A stretch of DNA of 5,819 nt. It comes from Deltaproteobacteria bacterium. GTDB lineage: Bacteria; Desulfobacterota; DSM-4660; Desulfatiglandales; HGW-15. Every line of letters begins with the position of its first letter. The stretch's first letter is position 1. Location of the stretch: assembly GCA_019308985.1 (NCBI GenBank), contig JAFDHB010000205.1, positions 1 through 5,819 of the forward strand. The letters are read 5' to 3'. Shown here piece by piece: positions 666 through 5,819 of this stretch. The translations under genes were made by a program, and so were the position numbers. The notes beneath the pieces were generated by a model. The model had not been told where the DNA came from. It did no database searches and was given only the letters and a program-made list of their open reading frames with translations.

Positions 666-1568
666 ATGGGGGCCCTATTTCTGGTTTCGGGATCAGGGAA
701 GACGGTTGGAAGGATAGATCCTGAGAAACTCAGGAATAAGGAGTTTTTGTCCCCTCATATAAGGGATCCTGGGGGGTGGGTCCCACTGCCCTCCGTGCCC
801 GTTTCATCGTGGATCATGTCGAGGCACAGCACCATTGAGCTTCCCTTCACCACATACCTTTGCGGATCCTGCTCCTCCACTTTTCATGTCATGGAGAAAC
901 TGGCACGGGAAGCGGAGGTCAAACCATGGGATAGCGTGTTTTCTCTTAGCCAGTGGGCTGGAATAGGGCAGTGGTCCAGGAGGTGGATTTCCCGGGAAGG
1001 GAATGTTCATGCTACCTTTGTGTTACCTGCTGAGATGAGCGGTTTTCCCGGGCCCCTTTCTCTGGTGATTGGCTTTTGGATAACCCGCTTCTTGGAAAGG
1101 GAAGAGATTCCCGCAAGGATAAAATGGCCCAATGATATCGTGATTCAGAGGCGCAAGTTGGGAGGTATTCTGGTGAGGCATACCCTGGGGGCATCCTTTG
1201 CTGGGGTGGGTTTGAATGTGAACAGTGCTCCAATGGCATGGGAACTGGAAACTGGAGATCTTCCAGCCATCAGCCTCAGGGAAGCCGGCTATTATGAATT
1301 GGATCCATTGTTCCTATGGGGAAAAGCTCTCGAGGAATTGAAAGGATATTACCAAGGGGAGTGGAAGGCTGAAAGGAGGAACTTCATCTCCAAGGCAGAG
1401 TCCCTCCTGGAGTTCAGGAATGAGGTGGTGGACGTGATCGACGGTAAAGGTGTCTTGCGGCGCGGACGGATTTGCGCCGTTGGCTCCAATGGAGGCCTGA
1501 TAGTGGCTTTTCCTACGGGAAAAGAGGAGATATTATCGGGAAGGATATTTTGCGCGAGAGAGGAGTAA
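666..1568 (+). CDS. birA: Biotin--protein ligase (biotin--[carboxylase] ligase), no HTH domain
   Basis: This 300-residue cytoplasmic enzyme would activate biotin with ATP to biotinyl-AMP and transfer it to the acceptor lysine of a biotin-dependent carboxylase, most obviously the pyruvate carboxylase encoded next. Family landmarks are SSTFHVMEKL (about 70-79), the biotinyl-AMP loop AGIGQWSRRW (98-107), the catalytic core KWPND with Lys153, KLGGILV (164-170), GVGLNVN (180-186) and a C-terminal SH3-like BPL_C domain (about 242-296). The loop departs from the usual GRGRRGRxW: Ile replaces the first Arg, and Gln102 sits where E. coli BirA has Arg118. The first 60 residues show no helix-turn-helix, so this is a monofunctional ligase rather than a repressor. 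ATG 666 is the only ATG start upstream of the catalytic domain other than 816, and an in-frame TGA at 645 blocks extension. It has no strong Shine-Dalgarno; TTG at 747 behind AAGGAG is an alternative, although the spacing is short. Confidence 0.9.
   Translation: MGALFLVSGSGKTVGRIDPEKLRNKEFLSPHIRDPGGWVPLPSVPVSSWIMSRHSTIELPFTTYLCGSCSSTFHVMEKLAREAEVKPWDSVFSLSQWAGIGQWSRRWISREGNVHATFVLPAEMSGFPGPLSLVIGFWITRFLEREEIPARIKWPNDIVIQRRKLGGILVRHTLGASFAGVGLNVNSAPMAWELETGDLPAISLREAGYYELDPLFLWGKALEELKGYYQGEWKAERRNFISKAESLLEFRNEVVDVIDGKGVLRRGRICAVGSNGGLIVAFPTGKEEILSGRIFCAREE
1561..1565 (+). promoter_or_regulatory. Ribosome binding site of pyc
   Basis: AGGAG inside the last codons of birA, four bases before the pyc ATG. 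With only one base between the birA stop codon (1566-1568) and that ATG, translation of the two genes is probably coupled. Confidence 0.75.
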
Positions 1569-1569
1569 G

Positions 1570-4500
1570 ATGAAGCAAAAGGATTTTCTTCAGGTAAAAG
1601 AGGAACTGAAGGGGAAACCCATATTAGTTGCAAACCGGGGAATTCCCGCCAGAAGGATCTGCCGATCCATAAAAGAACTGGGAGCCATTCCCATTATAGC
1701 CGCAACGGACCTGGACAAGACCGCGCCCTTTACCTCGGGCGCCAAGGAGCTGTTGCTTTTAGGCAGGGATCCCAGGGCCTATCTTGACGTGGACTTGATG
1801 ATCAGGCTCGCCAAGAGGAGAGGGGTTGCCGGCATACACCCTGGATGGGGATTCGCCTCTGAGAGCGAGGATTTCCCCCACAAGTGTCGTGACGCCGGTA
1901 TAACATTCATTGGTCCGGATCAACGGTCCATGCAACAGTTGGGGAACAAGGTATCAGTGCGAAAACTGGCGCGCAGCCTTGGCATACCGGTTATTGCGGG
2001 ATCCCGGGGAGCTGTGGACCTGGAAGAAGCCGAAGAAATAGCCCGCGAAATTGGTTTTCCTTTGATGCTCAAGGCAGAAGGTGGAGGGGGAGGCCGAGGA
2101 ATACACATCGTCAAGGATAACTCTGAATTGAGGGAGTCCTTTAGAAAGGCATCTTCCCTGGCCCAAGCGGAATTCGGAAATCCCCGTCTCTATATGGAGA
2201 AATACCTTGAGTCAGTAAGGCACATAGAGATCCAGGTCCTGGCAGACCGGTACGGAAACTGTATTGCCTTCGACGAGAGAGATTGTACTGTCCAGAGGAA
2301 GCACCAGAAACTGGTGGAAATCACCCCCTCTCCATGGTCCAACATGTCTCCAGAACTGAGAGAAAAGCTGAAGGAATATGCCAGGCGCCTGGTGGAGGCC
2401 GTAGGTTATCACTCCCTGTGCACTGTGGAATTCCTGCTGGACCAGGACGCCAACCCATACCTGATTGAGGTGAACACCAGGCTCCAGGTGGAACACGGCA
2501 TCACGGAGTGCAGGTACGGGATAGATCTGGTGGAGGAGCAGATTGCAGTGGCTTTTGGGGCCAAGTTGAGGTGGACTCAGAGCTCTCTCCGTCCCCACAA
2601 CCATGCCATGCAGGTCCGGATCAACTGCGAGGACCCCAAGAACGACTTCGCTCCGAACGGTGGTCTGATACACAGGTATCTGTCCCCGGGGGGGCAGGGG
2701 ATAAGGGTGGATTCCTGCCTGAGCGCTGGGTATAACTTCCCGACCCAGTATGATTCGGCAGGAGCCCTCCTGATCGCCTACGGGAATTCCTGGGAAAAAG
2801 TTCTCTCCATCATGGACAGGGCTTTGGAGGAATACATCATCTACGGGGTGAAAACCACCGTCGGGTTCCACAAGCGGATCCTCAAGCACTCTCAGTTTCG
2901 GGCAGGGGAATTCGACACATCTTTCGTGGAGAACCATCCCGAACTTCTCCTTTATCATGATAAGGAGGACTTGCCCAACAGGGTGAGCAAGCTCATAGCC
3001 GAAATCTCTGCGAGGGGCTATAACCCTTTCATAGAGCTGGGTGAGTACAGGACCAGAGGCTCGCGCCGGATCGGAAGGTTCGACCCGGTACTCCCCTCTT
3101 TCGATCCTGCTGACACAGAGAGTCCGTATAAAAGGGGAGACCGGGATGCGATCCTGGACTATGTGAGGGACTCCTCATTAGTACACTTCACGGATACAAC
3201 GCCCAGGGACATAACCCAGTCCAACACTGGTAACAGGCTTCGCTTGGCCGAAGACAAGCTCATTGGCCCGTACCTGGACAATTGCAAATTCTTTTCCATT
3301 GAAAACGGAGGGGGTGCCCATTTTCATGTGGCCATGCTGGCAAACATGACTTACCCCTTTGAAGAGGCAGCCCAATGGAACCGGTTCGCCCCTAAGACTC
3401 TCAAACAGATATTGATCAGGTCCACAAACATCCTCGGTTACAAACCCCAGCCCCGCAATGTCATGAGGGTGACTGGAGAAATGATTTGTCAGCACTACGA
3501 CGTGATAAGATGCTTCGACTTCCTGAACCATATTGAAAATATGGAGCCCTTCGCCGAGGTGGTGATGGCCTCACGTTCTAATATCTTCGAGCCTGCCCTT
3601 TCTCTTTCCTATGGAAACGGCTTCGACATCCCCCATTATCTCTCGGCAGTGGACGAGATTATCACCATGATATCCAGGGTGACGGGACTCGGTCCCGAGA
3701 AGGCCAGCAAGAGGATCATCTTGGGCCTCAAAGACATGGCCGGTGTGTGTCCTCCCACTTTTATTTCCTCTTTGGTAAAGGAGATCAGGAAAAAATATCC
3801 CGAGCTGGTACTCCACTACCACCGCCATTTCACGGACGGGCTTTTTGTCCCTGCTGTTGCAGCCGCAGCCAAGGCTGGAGCCCATATCGTGGATACGGCC
3901 ATTGGGGCTGCCGTGAGATGGTACGGGCAGGGAGATGTCTTGTCCACTGCGGCTTACATAGAAGAGCTGGGAATGGAGGTTTGCCTCAACAAAGAGATGA
4001 TCAGAAAATGCAACTTCGTTCTCAAACAGATCATGCCCTACTATGATGCCTACACGTCTCCGTACTTCCAAGGGGTGGATTACGATGTGGTGGAGCATGG
4101 TATGCCAGGAGGAGCCACTTCCTCCTCGCAGGAAGGGGCCATGAAGCAGGGCTACATTCACCTCTTGCCCTACATGCTGGAGTTTCTCTCCGGAACGAGA
4201 AAGATCGTCAAGTACCATGACGTCACCCCTGGGAGTCAGATCACCTGGAATACGGCGTTTCTTGCTGTTACAGGGGCCTATAAAAGGGGGGGCGAAAAGG
4301 AAGTTCGAACCCTGTTGCAGGTTTTAAAGACTGTGGTGGAGACGCCAGAGGAAGAGTTGCCCGAGGAGATCAAGGCAAAGCGATTGGATATTTACCGGGA
4401 CTGCAATGATGCCTTCAGGAACCTCCTTCTCGGCAGATTCGGGCGGCTGCCCCTGGGATTTCCTCCTCAGTGGGTTTACGAGAGTGCCTTTGGGAAAAAC

Positions 4501-5277
4501 TGGAAGCAAGCAATGGAGCAAAGAACCGAGGACTCGCCCCTGAAACATTTGCTGGACGTGGACCTGGACGAGGAGAGGAAAAACCTTTTCAAGGAAATGG
4601 ACAGGATTTTCTCAGAGGAGGAGTTTGTGATGTACCTCAACCATCCGTCAGATGCCATCAAGACAATGAGATTCCAGGAGAAGTTCGGGGACCCCAATCT
4701 TGTTCCCCTGGATGTGTGGTTCGAGGGCCTGGAAATAGGCGAGGAGGTCTATTTCAATGACAAGGATCAAAAGCCCCACCGAATGGTATTGCTGGACATT
4801 TCAGAGCCGGACGCCAGAGGAATCAGGACCGTTAGATACACCTTGGATTCCGAGACCATGACCCATGAAGTGGAAGTGGGGGAAGCCCGACAATTTGATG
4901 ACAAGGGCGAAGAAATGGCTGATCCCGGCAACAAATACCACATCGGCGCTCCTTCCACCGGAGATCTTTGGGCGGTTTTGGTGGAGGTGGGGGATGTGGT
5001 GAAGAAGGGCGAAGAGCTGTGCAATCTTTCCATCATGAAACAGGAAAAAGCTGTTTACAGCCCCGTGGACGGAGTGGTCAAGAGAATACTCAAGTATGCC
5101 AATTACCAGGAAGACAAGAAAATGGTTCCGGTCAAGGAGGGAGAACTTCTGATGGAGCTGGCTCCCCTTTCCTCCACGTGCGATAATTGCAAGCACGCCA
5201 TAGTTGTGGAAGGAGGAAATTACTGTCCCTATTGTGGAACGAGACTCATGGAAAGGGCTCGCGCAGTGACTGCATGA
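1570..5277 (+). CDS. pyc: Pyruvate carboxylase, single-chain, with C-terminal zinc-ribbon-like tail
   Basis: A 1235-residue cytoplasmic enzyme predicted to carboxylate pyruvate to oxaloacetate using ATP, bicarbonate and covalent biotin. The biotin carboxylase part (about 15-465) shows KAEGGGGGRG with Lys168, ERDCTVQRKHQK (236-247) and the catalytic EVNTRLQVEH (Glu300, Asn302, Arg304). The carboxyltransferase part (about 535-830) shows DTTPRDITQ (542-550), Arg617, the KDMAG lysine (Lys721) and HRH metal ligands (His751, His753). These match R. etli residues D549, Q552, R621, K718, H747 and H749 by my alignment. MPGG is at 845-848; the following threonine (R. etli T882) aligns with Ser851. The SGxTSQP motif usual in this domain is not visible. 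A biotinyl domain follows (about 1122-1198) with SIMKQEK and acceptor Lys1157 instead of AMKM. The last 35 residues add CxxC-11-CxxC (Cys1204, 1207, 1219, 1222). Typical bacterial enzymes have about 1150 residues. The domain order argues for pyruvate carboxylase; another 2-oxoacid substrate is not excluded. Confidence 0.92.
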   Translation: MKQKDFLQVKEELKGKPILVANRGIPARRICRSIKELGAIPIIAATDLDKTAPFTSGAKELLLLGRDPRAYLDVDLMIRLAKRRGVAGIHPGWGFASESEDFPHKCRDAGITFIGPDQRSMQQLGNKVSVRKLARSLGIPVIAGSRGAVDLEEAEEIAREIGFPLMLKAEGGGGGRGIHIVKDNSELRESFRKASSLAQAEFGNPRLYMEKYLESVRHIEIQVLADRYGNCIAFDERDCTVQRKHQKLVEITPSPWSNMSPELREKLKEYARRLVEAVGYHSLCTVEFLLDQDANPYLIEVNTRLQVEHGITECRYGIDLVEEQIAVAFGAKLRWTQSSLRPHNHAMQVRINCEDPKNDFAPNGGLIHRYLSPGGQGIRVDSCLSAGYNFPTQYDSAGALLIAYGNSWEKVLSIMDRALEEYIIYGVKTTVGFHKRILKHSQFRAGEFDTSFVENHPELLLYHDKEDLPNRVSKLIAEISARGYNPFIELGEYRTRGSRRIGRFDPVLPSFDPADTESPYKRGDRDAILDYVRDSSLVHFTDTTPRDITQSNTGNRLRLAEDKLIGPYLDNCKFFSIENGGGAHFHVAMLANMTYPFEEAAQWNRFAPKTLKQILIRSTNILGYKPQPRNVMRVTGEMICQHYDVIRCFDFLNHIENMEPFAEVVMASRSNIFEPALSLSYGNGFDIPHYLSAVDEIITMISRVTGLGPEKASKRIILGLKDMAGVCPPTFISSLVKEIRKKYPELVLHYHRHFTDGLFVPAVAAAAKAGAHIVDTAIGAAVRWYGQGDVLSTAAYIEELGMEVCLNKEMIRKCNFVLKQIMPYYDAYTSPYFQGVDYDVVEHGMPGGATSSSQEGAMKQGYIHLLPYMLEFLSGTRKIVKYHDVTPGSQITWNTAFLAVTGAYKRGGEKEVRTLLQVLKTVVETPEEELPEEIKAKRLDIYRDCNDAFRNLLLGRFGRLPLGFPPQWVYESAFGKNWKQAMEQRTEDSPLKHLLDVDLDEERKNLFKEMDRIFSEEEFVMYLNHPSDAIKTMRFQEKFGDPNLVPLDVWFEGLEIGEEVYFNDKDQKPHRMVLLDISEPDARGIRTVRYTLDSETMTHEVEVGEARQFDDKGEEMADPGNKYHIGAPSTGDLWAVLVEVGDVVKKGEELCNLSIMKQEKAVYSPVDGVVKRILKYANYQEDKKMVPVKEGELLMELAPLSSTCDNCKHAIVVEGGNYCPYCGTRLMERARAVTA
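5179..5238 (+). other. Zinc-ribbon-like coding segment at the end of pyc
   Basis: Codons for Cys1204-Gly1223 read CDNC, 11 residues, then CPYCG, the pattern of a small treble-clef or rubredoxin-like zinc knuckle. It follows the biotinyl domain directly and ends 12 residues before the stop codon. It is in frame with no sign of a gene junction, so it is a true extension of the carboxylase. Its role is unknown; metal binding is inferred from spacing only. Confidence 0.7.
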
Positions 5278-5318: not shown

Positions 5319-5709
5319 ATGACAAAATCTTCGGTGCTCATGTGTATTGCTGCGCTCTTGGCTTTGCTGGGGATGCACTCCATGGCCTGGGCCAATTGCG
5401 AAATTCCCTACGGCATTTACGACGACCAGGCGAGGATCCGTCTGTGAAGAACACATAGCAACCATGGAGAAATCTATTGCCAAAATCAAGGCCCTTGTGG
5501 GAGCGCAGGGGGCCGGAGACGTGAACTAGAGGGTCCGCTGGATCATGAACAAAAAGCGGCACGCCACCGAGTTCCAGTACATCCTCTGGCAGTACTTCCT
5601 CACACAGAGAATCAAGCCCGTTGACCCGAAGGATCCGGTTGCGTACAACTTGTACCTCAAGAATCTGACCTTGCTGCACCAGCTTTCCTTTTATGCCATG
5701 AAGGTGAAA
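5319..5709 (+). pseudogene. sodN: Nickel superoxide dismutase, exported form, multiply disrupted
   Basis: NiSOD disproportionates superoxide with one nickel bound by the N-terminal hook HCxxPCG. Residues 1-26 form a signal peptide with a hydrophobic core and an AWA cleavage site. The mature protein would start NCEIPYGIYDDQ, recognisably the hook. However, His1 is Asn and Cys6 is Tyr (codon TAC, one transition from TGC), so only Cys2 of the side-chain ligands is left. The frame ends at TGA 5445. Homology resumes in the next frame at CEEHIATMEKSI (from 5443), so bases were lost or gained near 5442. In that frame an amber at 5527-5529 interrupts GDVN and RVRWIMNKKRH, where relatives usually have Gln (CAG to TAG). 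Homology continues through QYFLTQRIK and LLHQLSFYAMKVK to 5709, then meets intron sequence, which supplies the next stop (5716-5718). The C-terminal tail is missing. No SodX-type maturation protease is in the window. Identity is good; loss of function is nearly certain unless the read has several errors. Confidence 0.85.
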
Positions 5710-5712
5710 ATC

Positions 5713-5754
5713 GAGTAGGGTAAGGCGGGTTAATTAGGCCTGCCTTATCCTCTC
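5713..5754 (-). ncRNA. Group II intron domain VI with branch-point A
   Basis: On the minus strand TAAGGC (5747-5742) pairs with GCCTTA (5726-5721), extended outward past one A/C mismatch by AGG/CCT (5751-5749/5719-5717) and then GAG/CTC (5754-5752/5715-5713). This leaves A5716 as the single bulged base on the 3' strand. That A is the seventh base from the predicted intron end, the canonical branch-point distance. The spacing of bulge and AY end together fixes the splice junction. Confidence 0.78.
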
Positions 5755-5757
5755 ACA

Positions 5758-5788
5758 GAACCGTACGTACGGGCCTCGTATACGGCTC
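5758..5788 (-). ncRNA. Group II intron domain V
   Basis: Read on the minus strand from 5788, GAGCCGTA pairs with TACGGTTC (5765-5758) in an 8-base-pair lower stem with one G-U pair. It contains the catalytic AGC triad (5787-5785). A two-base CG bulge (5767-5766) follows, then an upper stem TACG/CGTA (5780-5777/5771-5768) with a five-base loop. This is the domain V shape. It is 31 nt instead of the usual 34, because the cap is short and the terminal loop is AGGCC rather than a GNRA tetraloop. Confidence 0.82.
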
Positions 5789-5792
5789 CTGT

Positions 5793-5819
5793 TTATTTTC
5801 CCTCATACCTGCCATGAAA
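5793..5819 (-). CDS. Possible C-terminal tail of the intron-encoded protein
   Basis: One minus-strand frame reads FHGRYEGK and a TAA stop (5795-5793), four bases before domain V. In several bacterial intron classes the maturase/reverse transcriptase ORF ends close to domain V, so this could be its last residues. Eight residues cannot establish it, and I recognise no motif. Confidence 0.25.
   Translation of the reverse strand, partial: FHGRYEGK

Follow-up and report, generated by a model that had tools for sequence, protein, structure and literature searches.

At positions 5710-5819 of the window, the minus strand carries a group II intron 3' end. The window is the whole stretch of 5819 nucleotides analysed here (C311:367-6185, on a contig of 6185 bases). 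We consider it likely (roughly 85%) that this is a mobile intron of the IIC kind that lies antisense across a sodN pseudogene, directly after the lysine codon of an MKVK stretch, and that arrived by reverse splicing and copying. In such an event, the intron RNA would have reverse-spliced into the DNA and the intron's reverse transcriptase would then have copied the inserted RNA. The window and its contig both stop at 5819, which leaves 110 bases of the intron in view; its remainder, perhaps together with the lost sodN codons, would lie farther right. The features of the window that bear on this reading are as follows.

5319-5709, plus strand: remnant of sodN (nickel superoxide dismutase) with the C-terminal part missing, recognized by PF09055 and by similarity to the SodN of relative L020
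5394-5396, plus strand: Asn codon where 9/9 relatives have the hook His (comparison of relatives)
5409-5411, plus strand: Tyr codon where 9/9 relatives have the second hook Cys (comparison of relatives)
5445-5446, plus strand: frameshift, with two bases fewer than L020 in the alignment
5527-5529, plus strand: in-frame TAG stop inside the sodN remnant
5710-5712, minus strand: intron 3' terminus GAT (12 of 13 kin introns end CTACTCGAT before host DNA)
5712-5755, minus strand: domain VI hairpin, in which one A, complementary to 5716, is bulged (fold and kin)
5716-5718, plus strand: TAG read from the intron's complement, overlapping the bulged A
5757-5789, minus strand: domain V hairpin (Rfam RF00029, fold and alignment with kin)
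5790-5819, minus strand: intron tail directly preceding domain V and truncated where the contig ends, in alignment with the tails of kin L046 and L047

The intron 3' end and its junction with sodN

Domain V of the window has the sequence expected of group II introns, as judged from alignment with kin introns and from a match to Rfam RF00029 at 5790-5715 (minus strand, 37.7 bits, E 7.4e-5) that is slightly below the gathering score of 40. In the minimum-free-energy fold of 5789-5710, both hairpins form and one A bulges out seven nucleotides from the terminal GAU, within the 7-8 nucleotides typical of domain VI in group II introns. The fold reaches -32.5 kcal/mol, against a mean of -20.6 for shuffled sequences (z -3.78, 0/200 shuffles as good). 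Domain VI taken alone is matched by 1/200 shuffles (z -3.78), and domain V by itself stands out less (z -2.08, 6/200 shuffles as good). The base of the domain VI helix and the bulge are common to the kin introns; by analogy, the bulged A is likely the branch point. Domain VI of the window also contains an A-C mismatch and has a longer arm than in the plasmid kin.

Kin introns were collected by blastn, which returned matches in eight plasmid records (nine places) and one phage record, with E values down to 2e-15, and by screening 395 genomes of the phylum, in which four genomes besides the source genome matched at E <= 1e-6. Genome searches at order and at class level covered an identical set of 85 genomes, and the latter contributed nothing further. 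We compared 13 kin: seven of the eight plasmid records, a second place in one plasmid, the phage record and the four phylum genomes. This set excludes the Persicobacter plasmid record and five domain V matches that are more distant (L026-L030). Of those five, three (L027, L029 and L030) end CTATCCCGAT, L028 ends CTACTCGAT and L026 has another sequence. An exact 25-base domain V/VI pattern had no match in viral contigs, and a distant-DNA search with the tail of L046 recovered only the domain V region of kin that were already known.

Two independent lines of evidence, the common intron end of the kin and the limit of SodN similarity, place the junction between sodN and intron at 5709/5710. Twelve of the 13 kin introns end CTACTCGAT and then pass into host DNA, and the window's CTACTCGAT ends at 5710; the thirteenth, L046, ends CTACTTGGT. 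The host DNA past the 3' end varies among kin, except in the Vibrio plasmid copies L031 and L037, which sit at a common site. From the other side, SodN similarity extends to AMKVK at 5709. Sixty sodN relatives were searched and nine had a match, the set to which our counts of 9/9 refer; all nine have MKxKQ, with Q next after MKxK. One of the nine (L021) matched in two frames and may carry a frameshift or an assembly error. The window is a good illustration of the single-base precision with which a 3' intron end can be placed on its own.

These results bear out most of the original prediction, which was made from the bare sequence and named the Rfam group II models as a check. It had proposed a group II intron 3' end antisense to sodN, one bulged A seven bases from the terminus and a junction placed to the base, all of which agree with the RF00029 match, the folds and the kin introns. 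It had also allowed for a different outcome, in which intact sodN relatives carry the intron's sequence as normal coding sequence, and the Q of all nine relatives stands at that point instead. Its reading of the TAG at 5716-5718 held in part: as proposed, this codon shares a position with the complement of the bulged A, but the sodN frame does not end there, since it shifts earlier, after 5445, and meets a stop at 5527-5529.

Kinship with group IIC introns and the choice of target

Kinship suggests that the window intron, of which 110 bases are read, belongs to group IIC. The window intron resembles the plasmid IIC copies (L031-L037 and L056) in its domain V sequence, in the base of domain VI with the bulged A and in the end CTACTCGAT; it differs from them in its longer domain VI arm, in its antisense position in decayed coding sequence and in the length that is visible. 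In the six plasmid copies whose reverse transcriptase gene is uninterrupted, the protein has 423-427 residues. That of L032, which was compared with solved structures, scores 277.6 bits against GsI-IIC and 276.5 bits against 7uim, versus 143.6 bits against LtrA and 139.4 bits against 6me0. A Pfam scan of two kin reverse transcriptases found RVT_1 and GIIM without an endonuclease domain.

Passages in three papers describe the target of group IIC introns as a terminator-like hairpin followed by T's (PMC3898094, PMC4424553, PMC8919778), and in a fourth a IIC intron is shown in complex with a DNA stem-loop (PMC10190682). The complete plasmid copies largely follow this pattern, as seven of eight have a hairpin and T-run immediately before their start at GTTTGCCC. 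In the remaining one, L036 from Marinomonas algicola, the T-run is present without a predicted hairpin. In one of the same papers, class C introns are described as landing behind terminators and sparing coding sequence (PMC8919778). This target preference counts against our main reading, as do the Rfam score below the gathering score, the short length of visible intron (110 bases), the mismatch and long arm of domain VI, and the searches of the source genome that recovered neither a reverse transcriptase nor a 5' part of this intron.

The copy in M. algicola provides a precedent in close kin, so an antisense insertion in coding sequence is not unique to the window. This intron splits an IS66 transposase gene in two; the parts match profile positions 2-190 and 193-279, and the intron lies on the other strand from both. 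As in the window, the intron is antisense to the coding gene that it interrupts and has the same end. Unlike the window, L036 is a complete intron with its reverse transcriptase, and the interrupted gene is a transposase of which both halves are present.

It is conceivable, though doubtful, that the C-terminus of sodN had already been deleted and that the intron landed behind a terminator hairpin brought next to the MKVK codon, removing nothing itself. Such a history would fit the seven of eight complete kin that lie behind hairpins, and it would fit the intact sodN of L020, which reads CAGAATGTG past the junction and has no T-run on the antisense strand. The copy in the IS66 transposase speaks against it, since that intron lies behind a T-run without a predicted hairpin and a hairpin is thus not strictly needed. 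The window and L036 can be read together as exceptions to the sparing of coding sequence, yet the window can equally be read as a landing in an already truncated gene. We raise only tentatively, and lean against, the more general idea that one lineage among IIC introns can insert antisense into coding sequence without a terminator hairpin (a decaying sodN here, an IS66 transposase in Marinomonas). If true, this would be a regular exception to the rule that IIC introns spare coding sequence, and a 5' exon without a hairpin, if that is what lies beyond the contig end, would add to the few cases of IIC introns that entered coding sequence.

The sodN remnant and the order of events

The sodN remnant matches PF09055 at 30.7 bits with two stops inside and is 57% identical to the SodN of L020 over residues 38-133. 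It shares with SodN a signal peptide-like start, the spacing and most of the conserved body. It departs from SodN in its frameshift, its stop, its missing C-terminal part and its hook, which reads NCEIPYGIY where all nine relatives have HCxxPCGxY. Functional SodN is also encoded in a single open reading frame, and here the frame shifts after 5445 and meets a TAG at 5527. Programmed frameshifting that keeps sodN in use was considered and rejected, because the hook residues are also gone. A search of the source assembly with a relative's SodN found no separate C-terminal piece, and the remnant had no match in plasmids. A limited literature search surfaced no paper on an intron in sodN, although such a paper may exist.

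The only other sodN-like locus found in the genome, C59:7118-7276 (L012 and L050), is also broken. There, the signal peptide-like start and the hook are in different frames, and SodN similarity stops after about 30-57 residues. The genome also encodes a desulfoferrodoxin domain (superoxide reductase) in an open frame of 130 residues on contig C410. It looks as though sodN is a function that the lineage has let go, with the intron as one of several marks on the gene.

The original prediction had called the insertion a true disruption, and this is not supported as stated. Because of its antisense orientation, the intron cannot be spliced out of a sodN transcript, as that prediction had noted. 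Nevertheless, sodN carries four other lesions (two hook residues, the frameshift and the stop), so inactivation cannot be attributed to the intron, and its insertion probably matters little now. The intron end in this damaged gene looks like an ordinary landing of a mobile element and not like a clean gene knock-out. More generally, the case cautions that an insertion in a gene with other lesions is not to be equated with the cause of that gene's loss.

An order of events in which the intron came first, killing an intact sodN whose other lesions followed by neutral decay, would be the original prediction taken to its fullest extent, and it appears unlikely. The junction does fall cleanly after a codon of a recognizable sodN, and sodN can still be aligned to L020 on both sides of the frameshift at the identity given above. 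On the other hand, the C59 locus is broken without any intron seen there, which suggests that sodN was being lost anyway, and the intact look of domain V beside a gene with four lesions hints at an earlier decay of sodN. Neither the C59 locus nor the state of domain V dates the events.

Assembly context and additional introns

The source assembly comprises 418 contigs and 5.06 Mb and is 91.5% complete, with 5.85% estimated contamination. All five domain V matches in this genome lie within 37 bases of contig ends, the usual sign of repeats that break an assembly. Both the fragmentation and the contamination estimate, as well as these five contig ends, could accommodate a chimeric junction, in which assembly ran on from sodN into a repeat that is not its true neighbour. 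We regard this as very improbable, as this intron end occurs nowhere else in the assembly, and a mis-join at random would have no preference for the precise base at which an intron ends. The gene beside sodN, a biotin carboxylase-type gene at 1570-5277, is open throughout its 1235 residues, which indicates that the assembly is not generally error-ridden here.

When the reverse transcriptase of a plasmid relative was searched against the source genome, the rest of the window intron was not found; apart from a weak match on C217, the matches were pieces of other introns, on C78 and C109 (34-37% identity). A search of this genome with the same relative's 5' 741 bases, run without a positive control, likewise gave no match.

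Several additional observations concern the surroundings of sodN and other introns. The minus strand at 7-201 of the window contains a frame of 64 residues that, on visual comparison alone, is similar to the Y1_Tnp (IS200-like) protein at L008 685-993; a Pfam scan gave no match for this frame. The region 666-5277 encodes a biotin ligase-type protein, followed by the 1235-residue protein, which combines biotin carboxylase, PYC_OADA and biotinyl regions with a C-terminal zinc-ribbon match.

Among the kin, L049 (2966-3067; genome G247, contig C201) is a domain V/VI remnant without a reverse transcriptase, situated between two open genes. The base of its domain V has decayed, yet its end is CTACTCGAT. 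The copy on Vibrio plasmid pVPH2 (L037, approximately 1524-3407) contains approximately 1.9 kb of extra DNA relative to pC1579 at their common site. This extra DNA encodes another reverse transcriptase and lies inside the intron's own reverse transcriptase region, so L037 is probably an intron within an intron. Finally, the source genome contains a different group II intron 3' end on contig C418 (L002, 1562-1613 and upstream), antisense in a GAF-GGDEF gene whose GGDEF match breaks off at profile position 45 of 161.
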